A DNA stretch of 64,000 nt from Tahibacter aquaticus (GTDB lineage Bacteria; Pseudomonadota; Gammaproteobacteria; Xanthomonadales; Rhodanobacteraceae). Positions 30,986 through 36,606 of the stretch are shown piece by piece. The stretch covers positions 62,001-126,000 of the forward strand of contig NZ_SNZH01000013.1 in NCBI RefSeq assembly GCF_004363655.1, read 5' to 3'. A model generated the notes under the pieces. It did no database searches. It had not been told where the DNA came from and worked only from the letters and a program-made list of their open reading frames with translations. How positions within the stretch are numbered: the first letter of the stretch is position 1; each line of letters starts with the position of its first letter. The position numbers and the translations under genes are program-made.

Positions 30986-31712
30986 GGATGACTCCGTGGG
31001 ATTGAATCCGGGACGCAAGGCTAGCCTGCGTGGCGACCGACCGGCGGTCGCGGGCCGCGGATTATAGGCCAGAAGCCCGCCCGCTGCCCGTCCCCGGCCT
31101 GGAGCGTACTTGGCTGTATGTCCAGCGCTCGACACCAGACCAGCGGCAACGTCGGCCCAGCCTCGGCCCATGCCGCTGCGGCGGCCTGCCAGGCCCAGCA
31201 GCGACAGGGCCAGGCGACCCACGACGGTCGCCTCGTCGCGGCATGGTTCCGGCGCGAGCCTGTCCGGGAGCCATCGCAGCCACGAACGACGCGGCAGCCG
31301 AAAGGTCGTGACCCCACACGGCGCCGCCGTCACGGTGGGACAACCCGGCCCGGCGGCTGCACTGCCAGGGCTGGAAGGAGCGCGCAAAAGCGCAGCCATC
31401 GGCTTTCTTCGCCAACCAGATTACCGGCGACCGCGAAAAATCCGATCCACGGCCGCCAGGGAATAGCTATTTCTCTTTATAAACAAAGATACTTAGTTGC
31501 AGTACCAAGCTGATCCTTGTCCGCACGGCACAGCAACCACCGCCGCCCGCCATGGAAGCGCGCCGGCCTGTCTTACCCACTGGCCACTCGATCCTTGGCG
31601 ATAAGAACACGAGAAATTTATCTCGCTTCGGCAGATGACCAAATTCCGCCACCCGCCCAGAAATCCACCCAACAATCTGTTTACAAAAGAAAAAACAGGA
31701 AGCCAGTCGCCT
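30986..31712. other. Long non-coding region between fba and rsr
   Basis: More than 700 bp lie between the divergent fba and rsr start sites with no supported gene; ORFs here are Arg-rich shadows. An AT-rich tract occurs at 31455-31500. A dyad CGAGA-AATTTA-TCTCG (31610-31625) lies about 90 bp upstream of the sigma-54 promoter, where an enhancer-binding protein would sit. Confidence 0.5.
31610..31625. promoter_or_regulatory. Dyad CGAGA-N6-TCTCG, candidate enhancer site upstream of the sigma-54 promoter
   Basis: This is a perfect 5-bp inverted repeat, flanked by GATAA/TTATC in a larger imperfect dyad, centred about 95 bp upstream of the -24 element. Sigma-54 promoters need an upstream activator site at about this distance. 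That the activator is RtcR-like is inference. Confidence 0.4.
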
Positions 31713-31727
31713 TGGCACAACCATTGC
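31713..31727 (+). promoter_or_regulatory. Sigma-54 (-24/-12) promoter of rsr
   Basis: TGGCAC-A-ACCA-TTGC matches the consensus TGGCAC-R-N4-TTGC exactly, with the invariant GG and GC ten bases apart; only the next base (C instead of A/T) differs. Transcription would begin near 31739, giving a leader of about 20 bases that contains the CGGAGA ribosome site before the ATG at 31758. Confidence 0.75.
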
Positions 31728-31757
31728 CCTGTCCCTCCCGCCAACACGGAGAACGAC

Positions 31758-33305
31758 ATGGCCAATTTCCAGCTGTTCCAAAGCCAGCGCGGCAAGCAAG
31801 TCCCCGCCGCCAATGCCCGCAACGAGGCCGGCGGCCTCGCCTACCAGCGCACGCCGCAGGGCGCACTGGCGCTGTACGCGGCGACGGGTTGCCTCAACGG
31901 CACCATCTACGCCGATGCGCAGACGCAACTGGAAAAGGTGCTGGAGCTCTGCGGCAAGGTACCGGCCGAGTTCATCGCCAAGACCGCGGTCTATGCGCGC
32001 CAGCGCGGCCATATGAAAGACATGCCGGCATTGTTGCTGGCCTGGCTGGCGCAGCATGACGGCGCGCTGTGCGTCCAGGTGTTCGAGCGCGTGGTCGACA
32101 ACGGCCGCATGCTGCGCAACTTCGTCCAGATCGTCCGCAGCGGCACGATCGGGCGCAAGTCGCTGGGTTCGCGGCCCAAGCGGCTGGTGAAGCAATGGCT
32201 GGAGCGGGCCGACGTCAACCAGATCCTGCATGCGGCCATAGGTCAGCAGCCGTCCCTGGCCGACATCGTGCGCATGGTCCACCCCAAGCCCGCCGATGCG
32301 CAGCGCGAGGCCTTGTACGCCTGGTTGATCGGCAAGCCGCATGACGCCGCCAACCTGCCGGAACTGGTACAGCGTTTCGAGGCGTTCAAGCGCGGCGAGG
32401 GGCAAGGTGAAGTACCGGAGCTGAATTTCCAGTACCTGACCGCGCTGCCGCTGGATACGCAGCAGTGGAAGGCCATCGCCCGGCGCGCCTCGTGGCAGAC
32501 CAAGCGCATGAACCTCAATACCTTCCTGCGCCACGGCGTGTTCGGCGACGCGGCATTGACCAAGGAGATTGCAGCCGGCCTGAGCGATGCGGCACAGGTG
32601 CGCAAGGCGCGTGTATTCCCGTACCAGTTGCTCGGCGCGTGGAATGCGGCCAGCGCGGACATGCCGCAGGCAATCCGCGACGCGTTGCAGGATGCGATGG
32701 AAATCGCGACCGAGAATACGCCGGCCTTGCCGGGCAATGTGGTGGTCGCGATCGACGTATCGGGTTCCATGCACTCGCCCGTGACCGGGCATCGCAAAGG
32801 CGCCACCTCGGCCTTGCGTTGCGTCGACGTAGCCGCCCTCGTGGCAGCCTGCATCAAGCGGCGCAATCCGGCCGCCCGCATCCTGCCGTTCGACACGGAA
32901 GTGCGCAGCACGGTGATCAATGCGCGCGACAGCGTGATCACCCAGGCCAGGCAATTGGCCGCGCTGTGTGGCGGTGGAACGCGGGTCAGCGCACCGGTGC
33001 AGAAGTTGAACCAGGAAGGTGCGCGCGTCGACACGCTGGTGATCGTCTCGGACAACGAGTCCTGGGCCGATACCCGGCGCGGCAACGGCACCGCGACAAT
33101 GCGCGAGTGGCACGCGCTGAAGGTGCGCTGCCCGAACGCCAAGCTGGTCTGCATCGACTTGCAGCCGTATGCGACCAGCCAGACCGGGACCAGCGCCGAT
33201 GTACTGCACATCGCTGGCTTCAGCGACGCCGTATTCGACCTGCTGGCCGATGCGGCGAATGGCGAGCGCGACTGGCTGCAGCGCATCGCAGCCGTGAAGT
33301 TGTAG
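31758..33305 (+). CDS. rsr: Ro60 orthologue Rsr (TROVE plus vWA domains)
   Basis: This 515-residue RNA-binding protein starts at the ATG at 31758, with CGGAGA upstream. Residues ~5-320 are the TROVE domain, a ring of helical repeats with conserved blocks such as EAGGLAYQRTPQGALALYAA, IAKTAVYARQRGHMKDMPAL and NLNTFLRHGVF. Residues ~325-515 form a von Willebrand A domain with the MIDAS motif DVSGSMHS beginning at Asp333 and LVIVSDNESW. Ro proteins bind Y RNAs on the outside of the ring and single-stranded ends of damaged RNAs in the central hole; bacterial Rsr works with exoribonucleases in rRNA maturation and RNA decay. A structured, tRNA-like RNA follows directly, and a sigma-54 promoter precedes, matching known Rsr-Y RNA modules. 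No rtcA, rtcB or rtcR is present here. Confidence 0.95.
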   Translation: MANFQLFQSQRGKQVPAANARNEAGGLAYQRTPQGALALYAATGCLNGTIYADAQTQLEKVLELCGKVPAEFIAKTAVYARQRGHMKDMPALLLAWLAQHDGALCVQVFERVVDNGRMLRNFVQIVRSGTIGRKSLGSRPKRLVKQWLERADVNQILHAAIGQQPSLADIVRMVHPKPADAQREALYAWLIGKPHDAANLPELVQRFEAFKRGEGQGEVPELNFQYLTALPLDTQQWKAIARRASWQTKRMNLNTFLRHGVFGDAALTKEIAAGLSDAAQVRKARVFPYQLLGAWNAASADMPQAIRDALQDAMEIATENTPALPGNVVVAIDVSGSMHSPVTGHRKGATSALRCVDVAALVAACIKRRNPAARILPFDTEVRSTVINARDSVITQARQLAALCGGGTRVSAPVQKLNQEGARVDTLVIVSDNESWADTRRGNGTATMREWHALKVRCPNAKLVCIDLQPYATSQTGTSADVLHIAGFSDAVFDLLADAANGERDWLQRIAAVKL

Positions 33306-33316
33306 ACCGCAAAAGC

Positions 33317-33342
33317 GCCGCGGCGGGATTTCCCGTCGCGGC
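33317..33342 (+). promoter_or_regulatory. 12-bp stem-loop after the rsr stop codon
   Basis: GCCGCGGCGGGA pairs with TCCCGTCGCGGC (one G-U pair, 2-base gap at the tip). No T run follows, so it is a poor intrinsic terminator. It may protect the rsr mRNA end or act as a processing boundary before the Y RNA. Confidence 0.55.
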
Positions 33343-33394
33343 ATGACTACCCACTACATGGCGATCGATGGATATCGCCGCACGATTTCGTTTC

Positions 33395-33534
33395 GCAGCG
33401 AATGCCCGGTGGAACTACACCCTCTGAAGGTCCAGGTCGCGGGTTCGATTCCCGCCGTCCCCGCCATTATGGGGACGTAGCTCAGCGGTAGAGCAGGAAA
33501 ATACGTTTCACCACCTCTTGTCGCTGCACTTTTT
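33395..33534 (+). ncRNA. YrlA-type bacterial Y RNA with a circularly permuted tRNA-like module
   Basis: Reading 5' to 3': an outer strand GCAGCGA (33395-33401) pairs with TCGCTGC (33521-33527). GGTGGAAC (33408-33415) pairs with GTTTCACC (33505-33512) with one G-U. TCC (33431-33433) pairs with GGA (33496-33498) as the anticodon-stem equivalent. Inside is a tRNA body in reversed order: T stem GCGGG/CCCGC around TTCGATT (33439-33455), acceptor strand CGTCCCC then GCCA (33456-33466), a TTAT linker, acceptor strand GGGGACG (33471-33477), TA, and D arm GCTC-AGCGGTA-GAGC (33480-33494). All seven acceptor pairs match. A CTTTTT run (33529-33534) follows. This order is that of YrlA RNAs, which bind Rsr through the outer stem and mimic tRNA with the inner part. 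The 5' and 3' ends are estimated from pairing. Confidence 0.85.
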
Positions 33535-33535
33535 C

Positions 33536-33571
33536 GCAGGGCAGCACGGCCGGCATGGGCGGCTGCCCTGC
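33536..33571. terminator. 10-bp inverted repeat after the Y RNA, possible transcription stop
   Basis: GCAGGGCAGC (33536-33545) and GCTGCCCTGC (33562-33571) form a perfect 10-bp stem with a 16-base loop between the Y RNA and the convergent DUF2959 gene. It lacks a T run on either exit side, so it may act as a boundary or Rho-linked structure rather than a classic terminator. Confidence 0.4.
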
Positions 33572-33608
33572 ACTATTTCAAGCGCTTACAGCGAATTTTT
33601 CCGCCGAT

Positions 33609-34343
33609 TCAATTCCCCTCGACCCGAAACTCCTTCAGGAACCGGTCTGCCTCGGCCGTCGCCTTCTGCACATCGCGCTGCAGATTGGCCGCGTCGGCCT
33701 GCAGCCGCGGCAGTTCGTCCTTGATCGCGCCTATCGCGGCGGCATTGAGGTTGTGCTTGAGGTAGAGCACCTGGTCGCCCAGCACCTTCAGCGCGGGCTG
33801 GAAGCTGGCCTGGGCGCGGCGCATGGCCTGGTCCAGCGTGCGGTAGCGGCTGCGCGTGCGTTCCAGCTGCGCCTTGGACTTGGCGCGCAGGCTGGCATCG
33901 CTGTACTGGGCCAGCTCGCCTTCCCATTCCTTGAACAGCGCGTCGGCGACCGACTCCACCGCCGCCACACGTTCGCCAAAGGCCTGCGCGCGTGCGCTGG
34001 CTTCGTCGTGGCTGGCCTTGAGCTTGAGATAGACCGATTCCAGCTCGCCGGCCTCCACGCTGACCACGGCACGGAACGCCGTCAGTGCATCGACATAGGC
34101 CTGCTCTGCCTCGCCCTGGGAATCGCGTGCTGCATCGACCCGATCCAGCAGCAGTTCGCGCTTGGCGATGCCAATCTTTTCCAGTGCGCCGAAATAAGCG
34201 CTCTGGCAGCCGGTCAGCAGTGCGACGGCAACCACGAACAGCAGCACCGCTACCGTGCCGGCCCTGACGCCACGCCAGCGCTTGCGCGAACCGACAAAAA
34301 GGCAATTTCCATTTTTCTGCACATATGCGTCGCTAGATTCCAC
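33609..34343 (-). CDS. DUF2959-family coiled-coil lipoprotein
   Basis: This 244-residue protein is taken from a GTG at 34343, which has GGGAGG seven bases upstream and overlaps the end of the Sel1 gene by 11 bp, a sign of translational coupling. After a basic stretch comes a hydrophobic segment ending LLTGC, a lipobox. The rest (SAYFGALEKIGIAKRELLLD onward) is almost entirely helical, rich in Ala, Glu, Arg and Leu, and predicted to form coiled coils; it matches the DUF2959 pattern. The function is unknown; it is probably anchored in the envelope. It is the last of three overlapping genes. Confidence 0.82.
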   Translation of the reverse strand: MESSDAYVQKNGNCLFVGSRKRWRGVRAGTVAVLLFVVAVALLTGCQSAYFGALEKIGIAKRELLLDRVDAARDSQGEAEQAYVDALTAFRAVVSVEAGELESVYLKLKASHDEASARAQAFGERVAAVESVADALFKEWEGELAQYSDASLRAKSKAQLERTRSRYRTLDQAMRRAQASFQPALKVLGDQVLYLKHNLNAAAIGAIKDELPRLQADAANLQRDVQKATAEADRFLKEFRVEGN

Positions 34344-36606
34344 TGCCCGCCTCCCGCTTGCCATTGCGATACTGCTCCAGCCGTCGCTGCAGTTGCTTGA
34401 CCAGTTCCGCCGAAACGGACTTGCGTGCCTCGAACAGACGATTGGCACGTTCCTGGGTTGCCACCGCCGCCTTGAAATCGCCGGCCGCCGCTTCGCAGGC
34501 GGCCAGGGTGTCGACATAGTGCGCCGGCGCAGATTCATCCGCCGTGAGGGGACGGATCGCGGCCAGGCCAGCCGACGCATCGAGCAAGGCCTCATCGGCA
34601 GGAGTACATACCGCCCAGGCGAAGTTGTTGGCCGTCTCGGCATGAGGGCCGGTCGCAAGCAAGGTTGCCCACAACTTGCGCGCGGCCTTGGGCTGCGGCG
34701 CCGTCGCCAGTCCGTACCACTGCGCCGTCGCCAGGGCATTGCCCGCTTCCTTGCTGCCTGCCGCATAGGCCTTGCGCAGCAACTCCATCGCCTCGGGCGA
34801 CTGCTGTTGCGTACCGGCCGATCCAATCAGCATCTTGGCCAGGGACAGCTGCGATTCGACCACGCCCTTTTGCGCGTCACCACGCAGCAGTGACTCGGCC
34901 TTGGGCTTGTCCTGCGGTACGTCCCTGGCGCCGGCATACAGCAGTTCCGCCCAGGCGCGGCGTGCGACGGCACTGTCGTGGTCCTGCACGATGGCGGCGT
35001 ACAGGATGGCCGCCTGTGCCGGTCCACCGTTCAGGCCCTCGACGTCGCGCTCGTACAGCCCGGCCAGCGCCGTGCCGCCCTGCTCATCGCCGGCCACTAC
35101 CGCGCTGAGCAGCCAGCCCTGGGCATGCAGCAGCGTGGCCAGGTCGTCGCCCTGCTCAAGATAGTCCTGACCGACAACCGTGCTGGACATGGCCTCCCCG
35201 CCATGGGCGGCAAGCTTGAGCCATTTCAGGCCGAGCACCTTGTCCTGCTTGACGCCGGCCAGGCCGAAGTAATGCACGGACCCGACCGAGCGCTGGGCTG
35301 CCGCCATTCCGCTTTCCGCGGCGCGGCCGAACCACAGCGATGCCTGGGCGCCGTCGGTGCGCGCGAAGAAGTGCCTGGCGTAGAGGTTCTGCGCGATCGG
35401 CATGCCGGCCTCCGCCGCGCTGATCGTACGTCGCAGATGCACGCCTTGCAGAACGCCGCCGTTGCGGTCCGCCGCCCGTGCGGCAAGCATCACGGCAACC
35501 TTGGCATTGCCTTCCGCAGCGGCTTTTTCCAGGTCTTTTTCGACCAGGGCCCACGCCGACTTGCGCCCGGACAGTTCGCCCAGCACGCCGAACAGCAGAC
35601 TGCCCTGGGCCTGTCCCAGGCGCTGGTCGGCCTGCTCGACCAGCGCTTTCGCCGCCTTGGCATGGCTGCCGCGCTTGCCTTCGTCGCCCAGGTACAGGAA
35701 GGCCAGCGTGACCAGCGCCATGGCGTACCGTTTTTCCGCCAGCGGCAACAGTGCATCGATCGCCTGGCCGCGGCATGTCGAGGCAAGCTTCTCGCAGATC
35801 ATCGCCAGCGTCATGGCAGGCATCAGATGGCCTGCCGCGGCGTTGCGCTGCAAATTGCCCATCATCGCCTTGAGCGTGGCTTCATCTTCCGAACCCAGCA
35901 GATGCAGCTGAGCCAGCGGCGCGTCGGGCGAATTAGTGACTGCCGCATCGCGCCAGGCCTTCACTACTTCGCGGCGAAAGTAGGGAAACTCGGCCTGTGG
36001 ATTTTCGCGCTGCAATTGCACGTACGCGTCGAGGTAGTCGAATTGCAGCAGCGTCTCGCGGGCATCTTTCGCGTCCCACAGCCCCAGCGTGTAGACCAGA
36101 TAGCGCCCGCCGTCGTAAGGCTCGTAAATCTCATAGAGGACTTCACGGCCGGTGGCGAAGACGACTGCCTCGGCATCGGACAGGCTGAGGATCCGCACCG
36201 GAACGATGCCCTGTTTCAGCGCACGGCCCGCCAGTGCATGTGCCAGCAGTGCCTCGAAACGTTCGCCGCGGCTTTGCGCCAGCGCCTCGTCGCCATCAGA
36301 CCGCGCGCATTCCTGCGCCGCATACCACAGGCCCAGTCCGACCGGATTGACCTGCAGCGCCGTGGCGATTGCCGCGGCCTTGGCGCGACAGCCATCGGCG
36401 ATGGCAGCACCGTCGGCGGTCTGGATTTCGCCGATCAGCGCATAGGTCGCGTAGATCGCATCCGCATCGCCCTTGGCGAACAGCTCGCGCCAGTCGGCGT
36501 CGATGTCGTTGCCGGCCTGCGCTGCCGGCACGGCCAGCGCCAGCACGGCGCCGGCAAGCGCCCGGCACAGGCGAGAAGCGAGCCAGCCTGTACGCTCAGT
36601 TTTCAT
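34333..36606 (-). CDS. Periplasmic Sel1-like/TPR repeat protein
   Basis: This 757-residue protein starts MKTERTGWLASRLCRALAGAVLALAVPAAQAG, a Sec signal peptide (shown only to the cleavage site), with AAAGGA upstream. From about residue 230 it is a solenoid of Sel1-type repeats recognisable as A-x-x-G-x-x-x-A-x-x-x-L-A-x-x-Y-x-x-G; clear examples are SLWFGRAAESGMAAAQRSVG and AMELLRKAYAAGSKEAGNAL. The last ~90 residues look like a TPR pair. Sel1 proteins act as scaffolds for protein complexes. Its ATG lies inside the end of the DUF3857 gene and its stop inside the start of the DUF2959 gene, so the three are coupled. Confidence 0.85.
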   Translation of the reverse strand: MKTERTGWLASRLCRALAGAVLALAVPAAQAGNDIDADWRELFAKGDADAIYATYALIGEIQTADGAAIADGCRAKAAAIATALQVNPVGLGLWYAAQECARSDGDEALAQSRGERFEALLAHALAGRALKQGIVPVRILSLSDAEAVVFATGREVLYEIYEPYDGGRYLVYTLGLWDAKDARETLLQFDYLDAYVQLQRENPQAEFPYFRREVVKAWRDAAVTNSPDAPLAQLHLLGSEDEATLKAMMGNLQRNAAAGHLMPAMTLAMICEKLASTCRGQAIDALLPLAEKRYAMALVTLAFLYLGDEGKRGSHAKAAKALVEQADQRLGQAQGSLLFGVLGELSGRKSAWALVEKDLEKAAAEGNAKVAVMLAARAADRNGGVLQGVHLRRTISAAEAGMPIAQNLYARHFFARTDGAQASLWFGRAAESGMAAAQRSVGSVHYFGLAGVKQDKVLGLKWLKLAAHGGEAMSSTVVGQDYLEQGDDLATLLHAQGWLLSAVVAGDEQGGTALAGLYERDVEGLNGGPAQAAILYAAIVQDHDSAVARRAWAELLYAGARDVPQDKPKAESLLRGDAQKGVVESQLSLAKMLIGSAGTQQQSPEAMELLRKAYAAGSKEAGNALATAQWYGLATAPQPKAARKLWATLLATGPHAETANNFAWAVCTPADEALLDASAGLAAIRPLTADESAPAHYVDTLAACEAAAGDFKAAVATQERANRLFEARKSVSAELVKQLQRRLEQYRNGKREAGSGI

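Follow-up and report, generated by a model that had tools for sequence, protein, structure and literature searches.

The region directly 3' of rsr in Tahibacter aquaticus carries what looks like the 3' half of a tRNA placed before a 5' half, the whole enclosed by two outer helices. This raises the question of which RNA the locus encodes and how complete a tRNA it imitates. The locus was analysed in a 64,000-nt stretch of one contig (hereinafter designated the window) of the 7.27-Mb genome, which is assembled in 82 contigs, and was compared with related loci. Features are listed in Table 1.

Table 1. Features of the rsr and Y RNA locus of T. aquaticus, in window coordinates; small numbers such as 29–31 are tRNA positions.
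Feature	Position	Strand	Basis
sigma-54 type promoter core TGGCAC-N5-TTGC (TGGCACAACCATTGC)	31713–31727	+	exact match
rsr, Ro60-like protein, 515 aa	31758–33305	+	Pfam, NCBIfam and 2nvo matches
YrlA-type Y RNA	33395–33530	+	RF02553 match, fold z
P1 5' strand GCAGCGA, outer Y stem, 7 bp with TCGCTGC (33521–33527)	33395–33401	+	covariation
P2 5' strand GGTGGAAC, inner Y stem, pairs with GTTTCACC (33505–33512)	33408–33415	+	covariation
Anticodon-arm equivalent: 29–31 ACC (33419–33421), loop 32–38 CTCTGAA (33422–33428), 39–43 GGTCC (33429–33433)	33419–33433	+	comparative parse, shuffles
Variable loop 44–48 AGGTC (C48)	33434–33438	+	conservation in copies
T arm, TTCGATT loop	33439–33455	+	paired in alignment
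Acceptor 3' strand 66–72 CGTCCCC, pairs with 33471–33477	33456–33462	+	covariation
Encoded N73-CCA (GCCA)	33463–33466	+	comparison of copies
Linker TTAT, joins CCA to position 1	33467–33470	+	sequence
Acceptor 5' strand GGGGACG (33471–33477), T8 A9, D arm (33480–33494)	33471–33494	+	sequence, alignment A2
27–28 GG, pair with 42–43 CC (33432–33433)	33496–33497	+	covariation

A YrlA-type Y RNA downstream of rsr

The Y RNA begins 89 nt past the end of rsr and matches the Rfam model RF02553 (YrlA) over its full length (model positions 1–114 of 114), with a score of 64.5 bits and an E-value of 1e-14 in the 321-nt stretch searched. Because this score falls under the RF02553 gathering score of 69 bits, the default Rfam scan of the whole window gives no match at the locus. 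The threshold is tight for copies of this kind, since other RF02553 copies that adjoin an rsr reading frame score 56–69 bits. Despite the sub-threshold score, the RNA is assigned to YrlA by its other features. Specifically, it shares with YrlA (including Salmonella YrlA, structure 6CU1) a Y stem with the motifs CGAATGC, CTAC and CTTGTCG, which are conserved in alignment A2 (described below), permuted D, T and acceptor arms, an rsr neighbour and a sigma-54/RtcR setting. Unlike the YrlA consensus of Rfam, which has no anticodon arm and, in the part printed, no CCA, the T. aquaticus copy has both. In the RF02553 alignment, 13 nt of the RNA (acccucugaaggu) stand as an unaligned insert.

The sequence 33395–33534 folds more stably than its dinucleotide shuffles (z = −3.1; among 200 shuffles, one was equally good), and ARAGORN finds no normal tRNA in the 64-kb window. 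The models of tmRNA and permuted tmRNA (RF01850 and RF04321) also match the T arm and acceptor, with 19.7 and 28.9 bits, below their cut-offs; these matches cover 33439–33479 only, whereas RF02553 covers the whole Y RNA.

The sequence-only reading of this DNA had proposed a YrlA RNA, made of an Rsr-type stem and a circularly permuted tRNA mimic, right 3' of rsr. Both the full-length match from the covariance-model search it had called for, below the gathering score as it is, and the covariation agree with this proposal. Covariation of the outer helices among relatives, on which the reading had staked its claim, is present for P1 and for P2. All the elements it described are found on the plus strand, except that the gap from GCCA to GGGGACG is four bases (TTAT) and not five.

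Covariation of the Y stem and the tRNA-like body

RF02553 was searched in overlapping genome samples of the family (233), order (398), class (369) and phylum (398), and the rsr loci used for comparison are the best 80 of at least 568 rsr-encoding stretches from named genomes. Weak RF02553 matches (about 27–38 bits) are a mixture of tRNA pairs and true Y RNAs. Specifically, locus L020 (37.9 bits) consists of two neighbouring tRNA genes, and several other weak matches are alike by eye; at loose thresholds the model scores the 3' half of one tRNA of such a tandem pair together with the 5' half of the next. L024 and the extra copies in L005 and L007, which are also weak matches, represent Y RNAs in which no D arm is recognisable.

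The covariation set comprises 113 YrlA copies, window included, picked by sequence motifs only. No pairing was demanded of the outer four P1 pairs or of the acceptor, while the motifs fix the inner three P1 pairs. In this set, a mean of 3.80 of the outer four P1 pairs form, compared with 2.37 in shuffles, the largest of 1000 shuffles reaching 2.58. The acceptor, evaluable in the 83 copies with an acceptor loop of at least 3 nt, has a mean of 6.57 of 7 pairs, compared with 4.00 in shuffles (largest 4.39); it is paired at just one of seven positions in two of these copies.

A MAFFT alignment of 30 sequences, which we chose from 110 references (alignment A2), gives a similar account of the whole structure: 91.3% of cells are paired, compared with 76.7% after shuffling, and double changes occur at 24 of the 36 pairs. 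Sliding the alignment by 1–3 columns lowers the paired cells to 35–47%. For the individual helices of the alignment, P2 (8 bp, one of them a G-U pair in the T. aquaticus copy) is paired in 81.7% of cells with double changes in five of eight pairs, the T stem in 100% with double changes in four of five pairs, and the pairs between 27–28 and 42–43 in 98.3%. The identity of the RNA, its helices and its promoter class are established by this kind of sequence comparison.

A resident tRNA gene was considered as a recent donor of the tRNA-like body by gene conversion, and this was rejected: the T arm and acceptor 3' end are matched elsewhere in the genome only twice, at three mismatches, and GGGGACGTAGCTCAG, searched with up to one mismatch, is unique to this RNA in its own genome.

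A candidate anticodon arm interrupted by the Y stem

The 3-bp anticodon-stem equivalent (GGA/TCC) noted in the sequence-only reading is present and appears to be just part of a 5-bp stem with a U33-type, 7-nt loop. Specifically, GGTCC is exactly complementary to GG and ACC taken together, and the loop reads C32-U33-CUG-A37-A38 in the T. aquaticus copy. The 5' strand of this stem is split between positions 28 and 29 by the whole Y stem.

For the test, the arm was placed at set distances from both the T arm and the D arm, with no selection on arm pairing, in the 108 of 113 copies that could be parsed (five were dropped because the D stem was not recognised). Room for the arm, taken as at least 17 nt from CTACA to the T stem, exists in 71 of the 108 copies, that of the window included; the other 37 are shorter. 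Over the 71 copies, positions 29–31 and 39–41 form a mean of 2.70 of 3 pairs, compared with 1.48 in shuffles (largest of 2000 shuffles, 1.79), and positions 27–28 and 42–43 form 1.96 of 2, compared with 1.30 (largest 1.49). Moving the frame by 1–4 nt lowers the former value to 0.54–1.58 and the frequency of U33 from 0.87 to 0–0.59. All five pairs are present in 57 of the 71 copies with the split at 28|29, and in 66 if a split at 29|30 is also allowed. Base 41 has a pairing partner in every one of the 71: hairpin base 29 or, on the D side, the base that follows 28.

In the loop of the 71 copies, position 32 is a pyrimidine in 68, position 33 is U in 62, position 37 is a purine in 67 and position 38 is A or C in 66. 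Positions 34–36 have an entropy of 1.4–2.0 bits, compared with 0.3 at 33 and 0.8 at 37, over 48 distinct arms. The adjoining variable loop has C48 in 65 of the 71 copies and GGTC in 53. Among the 35 copies left by thinning at 80% identity, pairing of 29–31 with 39–41 is 2.49, compared with 1.71 for the largest of 5000 shuffles, with U33 in 27 copies and a purine at 37 in 33; thinning at 70% identity leaves five copies and no statistical power. Fresh loci from the phylum sample and viral contigs supplied 17 new copies, of which 14 were parsed and eight were long enough; five pairs form in seven of these eight and U33 occurs in five, a small set in which shuffles have low power.

The triplet at 34–36 differs between relatives: it is CUG in the T. 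aquaticus copy, UCC in T. harae and, read by eye, AAA in T. soli. A34 occurs in 11 of the 35 thinned copies, and to our knowledge it is hardly used by bacterial tRNAs. Because A34 is common and the triplets of T. aquaticus and T. harae differ, it is unlikely that the triplets are decoded as genuine anticodons. An excess of U35 (47 of 74 arm-complete copies) was dropped as an argument, given its presence in 24 of 50 distinct loops and 17 of 35 thinned copies.

Thermodynamic folding gives a different picture. ViennaRNA does not predict the anticodon hairpin in the intact RNA: its mean pair probability is 0.11 over the 71 copies, exceeding 0.5 in four of them, and about 0.07 in the T. aquaticus copy, for which the arm fold is 2.8 kcal/mol worse than the best fold, which among other differences has a CUG/CAG hairpin there. 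With the Y stem omitted, the arm strands pair at a mean probability of 0.79, exceeding 0.5 in 57 of 71 copies. ViennaRNA models neither the D/T-loop core nor stacking across the junction. The hairpin is also poorly supported in the MAFFT alignment (52% of cells paired), which we attribute to gap placement there. The support for the anticodon arm is thus covariation, a comparative and not a physical result, and on this evidence the tRNA mimic appears to include an anticodon arm here and in many relatives.

ARAGORN was also applied to the 71 copies with room for the arm. It calls none of them a tRNA in native order and accepts 70 when they are rotated. It was rejected as proof of tRNA likeness because the controls pass too, specifically 21 of 37 rotated copies without the arm and 40 of 71 copies with swapped halves.

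The available text of PMC8394870 names D, T and acceptor arms of YrlA, and a figure of that paper colours YrlA by a tRNA code that includes the anticodon arm and could show one. In the parts available of PMC7790460, PMC8394870, PMC11472068, PMC9569102, PMC4726728 and PMC8058203, there is no mention of a YrlA anticodon arm. The novelty of the anticodon-arm subtype, as of the recurrent CCA described below, is therefore provisional: neither was met in the literature covered in part.

Acceptor pairing and the encoded CCA

The perfect acceptor pairing had been taken as a mark of an unusually complete mimic. Such pairing is normal for the family: a perfect 7-bp acceptor occurs in 62 of 112 parsed YrlA copies, a set selected with at least six of seven P1 pairs and not on the acceptor (4 of 116 copies were dropped as unparsable), so the T. 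aquaticus copy is ordinary in that respect.

The encoded CCA had likewise been taken as a mark of completeness, which stands in so far as it is uncommon and enriched at the tRNA position. N73-CCA lies at tRNA positions 74–76 in 15 of 86 copies (13 loci), compared with 6 of 431 at other loop offsets; the 86 are the evaluable ones among 123 parsed copies, with an acceptor of at least 6 bp and a loop of at least 4 nt. Measured against column composition the excess is modest (15 compared with 7.5 expected, P = 0.007), and the copies are related by descent. The T. harae copy has ACCA and a T. soli copy has GCCA, while L008, of the same genus, lacks CCA. CCA as a conserved functional element was rejected, being absent in 71 of the 86 copies; in these sequences it is a recurrent tRNA signature and not a conserved one. 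Its co-occurrence with the anticodon arm (12 of 59 copies, compared with 3 of 27 without the arm) is not significant (P = 0.37).

Rsr, the sigma-54 promoter and the RNA-repair genes

From its matches, the gene upstream of the Y RNA encodes a diverged but clear Rsr. The protein matches the Pfam families vWA_Ro60 (61 bits) and TROVE (25.7 bits) and Deinococcus Rsr 2nvo (E = 9e-22), and scores 75 bits with the NCBIfam Rsr model, well below its cut-off of 900. It is the single rsr match in the whole genome, and the nearest rsr among the best 80 of at least 568 loci is that of Tahibacter harae (83% identity).

The sigma-54 core sits 45 nt 5' of the rsr ATG and is the sole exact match in the window, where 0.34 are expected by chance. 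Among relatives (the best 80 of at least 568 loci, two omitted for short flanks), 56 of 78 carry such an element, with at most one mismatch, in the 400 nt upstream of rsr, and in 33 of them it is exact. A control stretch gives 0 of 76, and the opposite strand 2 of 78. No sigma-70 promoter was found in 31600–33700.

The sigma-54 promoter points to RtcR control of rsr. Tblastn finds no rtcR match in the window at E 1e-10. Instead, rtcR, rtcB and rtcA lie together on another contig (C2, locus L057), so the control would be in trans. Of the same best 80 of at least 568 loci, 69 have at least 3 kb downstream of rsr, and rtcB is found in that direction in 51 of these. RtcR-like matches were obtained in 66 of the 80, some of which may be other activators because the query includes the AAA+ domain. 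Because the rtc genes sit elsewhere here and near rsr in relatives, the rsr-yrlA pair looks split off the usual rsr-yrl-rtc unit; it is probably still under RtcR in trans. The available text of PMC7790460 describes regulation of Salmonella rsr-yrlBA-rtcBA by RtcR and damaged tRNAs.

Several further features of these loci were observed. The genome has a second RtcB paralogue (G000:C3:106202–107395, 312 bits). ACTTTTT lies directly 3' of the Y RNA stem, and an inverted repeat, GCAGGGCAGC...GCTGCCCTGC, occupies window positions 33536–33571, between the Y RNA and a convergent DUF2959 reading frame (33609–34826, minus strand). In T. caeni (L061), rsr has a sigma-54 promoter and, by eye, is followed by a DUF2959-like gene as in the window; no YrlA was found in the 900 nt 3' of that rsr, and L061 contributes none to the motif-picked set.

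Proposed function and alternative explanations

We consider it likely that the locus encodes a YrlA-type Y RNA with a permuted four-arm tRNA mimic, which would serve as an Rsr-tethered adaptor or decoy within an RtcR/sigma-54 unit. With the Y stem interrupting the 5' side of the anticodon stem at 28|29, the mimic would have all four tRNA arms; its body would run from anticodon loop through variable loop, T arm, acceptor 3' strand, CCA, 4-nt linker and acceptor 5' strand to the D arm. Most likely, the rsr-yrlA transcript would be made under RtcR/sigma-54 control when tRNAs are damaged, and its base-paired ends, P1 and P2, would hold Rsr. While tethered, the RNA would show generic tRNA surfaces to tRNA-acting enzymes, and the anticodon arm would allow it to be taken for an entire tRNA when the cell repairs damaged tRNAs. 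The favoured mechanism is most likely that of an Rsr-bound, stress-induced tRNA-like adaptor, a role that we infer, and in the arm-bearing subtype the RNA would probably double as a decoy for tRNA-binding or tRNA-cutting enzymes. A near-constant U33 and purine 37, a variable 34–36 and a kept stem are what a generic reader of anticodon arms, for example an anticodon nuclease, would select. Permutation would leave a copy that is cut in the loop as a single piece.

Modification by TruB and dihydrouridine synthase had been put forward in the sequence-only reading as a prediction, and is already known for YrlA: in their available text, PMC8394870 and PMC11472068 report permuted tRNA mimicry and modification by DusA and TruB, and the former reports pseudouridine and dihydrouridine in the T and D loops. 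The reading had also suggested that the mimic may be cleaved near CCA; for Salmonella, the available text of PMC7790460 reports no detected YrlA fragments under conditions in which tRNAs are cut. The same text offers tRNA decay or inhibition of an anticodon nuclease by YrlA as possibilities.

A more specific version, in which a large YrlA subtype is a complete permuted tRNA, with an anticodon arm and in some copies CCA, that Rsr holds within the RNA-repair regulon as a decoy or sacrificial substrate for anticodon nucleases and that RtcB could reseal, seems to us unlikely. Such an RNA would present a U33-type loop with variable triplets, and a cut in the loop would leave the halves joined because the Y stem holds the ends and the acceptor end is closed. 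Somewhat better placed, if still doubtful, is the explanation that this is an ordinary YrlA in which the 13-nt insert is a spacer or tRNA relic, and the D, T and acceptor domain and the Rsr stem tether PNPase as in RYPER. In its favour are the 37 of 108 copies that lack room for the arm, the Rfam consensus without an arm, the failure of the arm to form in thermodynamic folding, and the role of Rsr tethering to PNPase described in the available text of PMC4726728 and PMC8394870. A relic should not, however, keep compensatory changes in its stem together with a near-constant U33, a purine at 37 and a variable 34–36. The T. aquaticus RNA resembles the Deinococcus radiodurans Y RNA of RYPER in being encoded with Rsr, and by this analogy would be expected to tether Rsr to an effector (PMC4726728, available text). 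It differs from that RNA in its source, Tahibacter.

Permuted tRNA genes of algae and archaea also have the 3' half before the 5' half, joined at the acceptor end, and the Y RNA resembles them in both respects. It is very improbable that the locus is such a gene, matured to a working tRNA by removal of the Y stem and opening of the acceptor end beside the CCA. CCA is encoded at the right place, and ARAGORN calls a tRNA-Gln(CUG) when the sequence is rotated without the Y stem and given typed flanks and an added CCA. Unlike the algal and archaeal genes, the ends of the Y RNA run into the Y stem, there is no sign of maturation and the triplets vary between close relatives; moreover A34 is common, 71 of 86 copies have no CCA and the gene is part of a sigma-54 rsr unit. 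We know of no bacterial splicing system for such a permuted precursor. That chance or tandem tRNA genes were mistaken for a Y RNA is scarcely credible: RF02553 does weakly score a real tandem pair such as L020, but the score here of 64.5 bits, the P1 and P2 stems, the pairing acceptor strands and the lack of any ARAGORN tRNA in the window argue against it, and rsr adjacency and covariation refute it as well.

If many YrlA RNAs carry an anticodon arm, inhibition of anticodon nucleases would be directly testable through changes in the loop. The 15 N-CCA copies and the pairing acceptor strands hint that YrlA may have arisen from tandem tRNA genes, by linkage of the 3' half of one copy to the 5' half of the copy after it; the tandem tRNA pair scored by RF02553 hints at the same origin. 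The anticodon-arm subtype would be worth considering for the Rfam model, which leaves the T. aquaticus RNA below threshold.

Other Y-like RNAs

A second YrlA (51.9 bits) lies before rtcB on contig C2 (L057). Upstream of both, at L057:7720–8228 (G000:C2), are three more tandem Y-like RNAs; RF02553 reports just the fourth, YrlA copy of this array. Two of the three have a D arm TGGCGGAA...GACGCAC, which we take to be tRNA-Leu-like, and a loop TGAAAGT where a T loop would stand; the third is almost a stem alone. By their motifs, read by eye, the first two resemble a class II tRNA imitated in permuted order.

Similar class-II-like Y RNAs with a TGGCSGAA D arm are found at L004, L012, L120 and L123, and those observed span two genomes of the same genus and two Verrucomicrobia-type MAGs, which suggests arrays of Y RNAs in which different tRNA types are mimicked. 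At L003, L005, L007, L010, L014, L015 and others there are short Y RNAs, adjoining YrlA in Dyella and relatives, in which a GCCTTCGGGC-like hairpin precedes the T arm and no D arm is recognisable; they are possibly a mimic of a long variable arm.

Two Y RNAs lie 3' of rsr in T. soli (L062). The first has a different D arm, TCGTCCAATGGCAGGAC, which presumably resembles that of tRNA-Glu. The second is the copy with GCCA, after which its acceptor loop holds an insertion longer than 100 nt.
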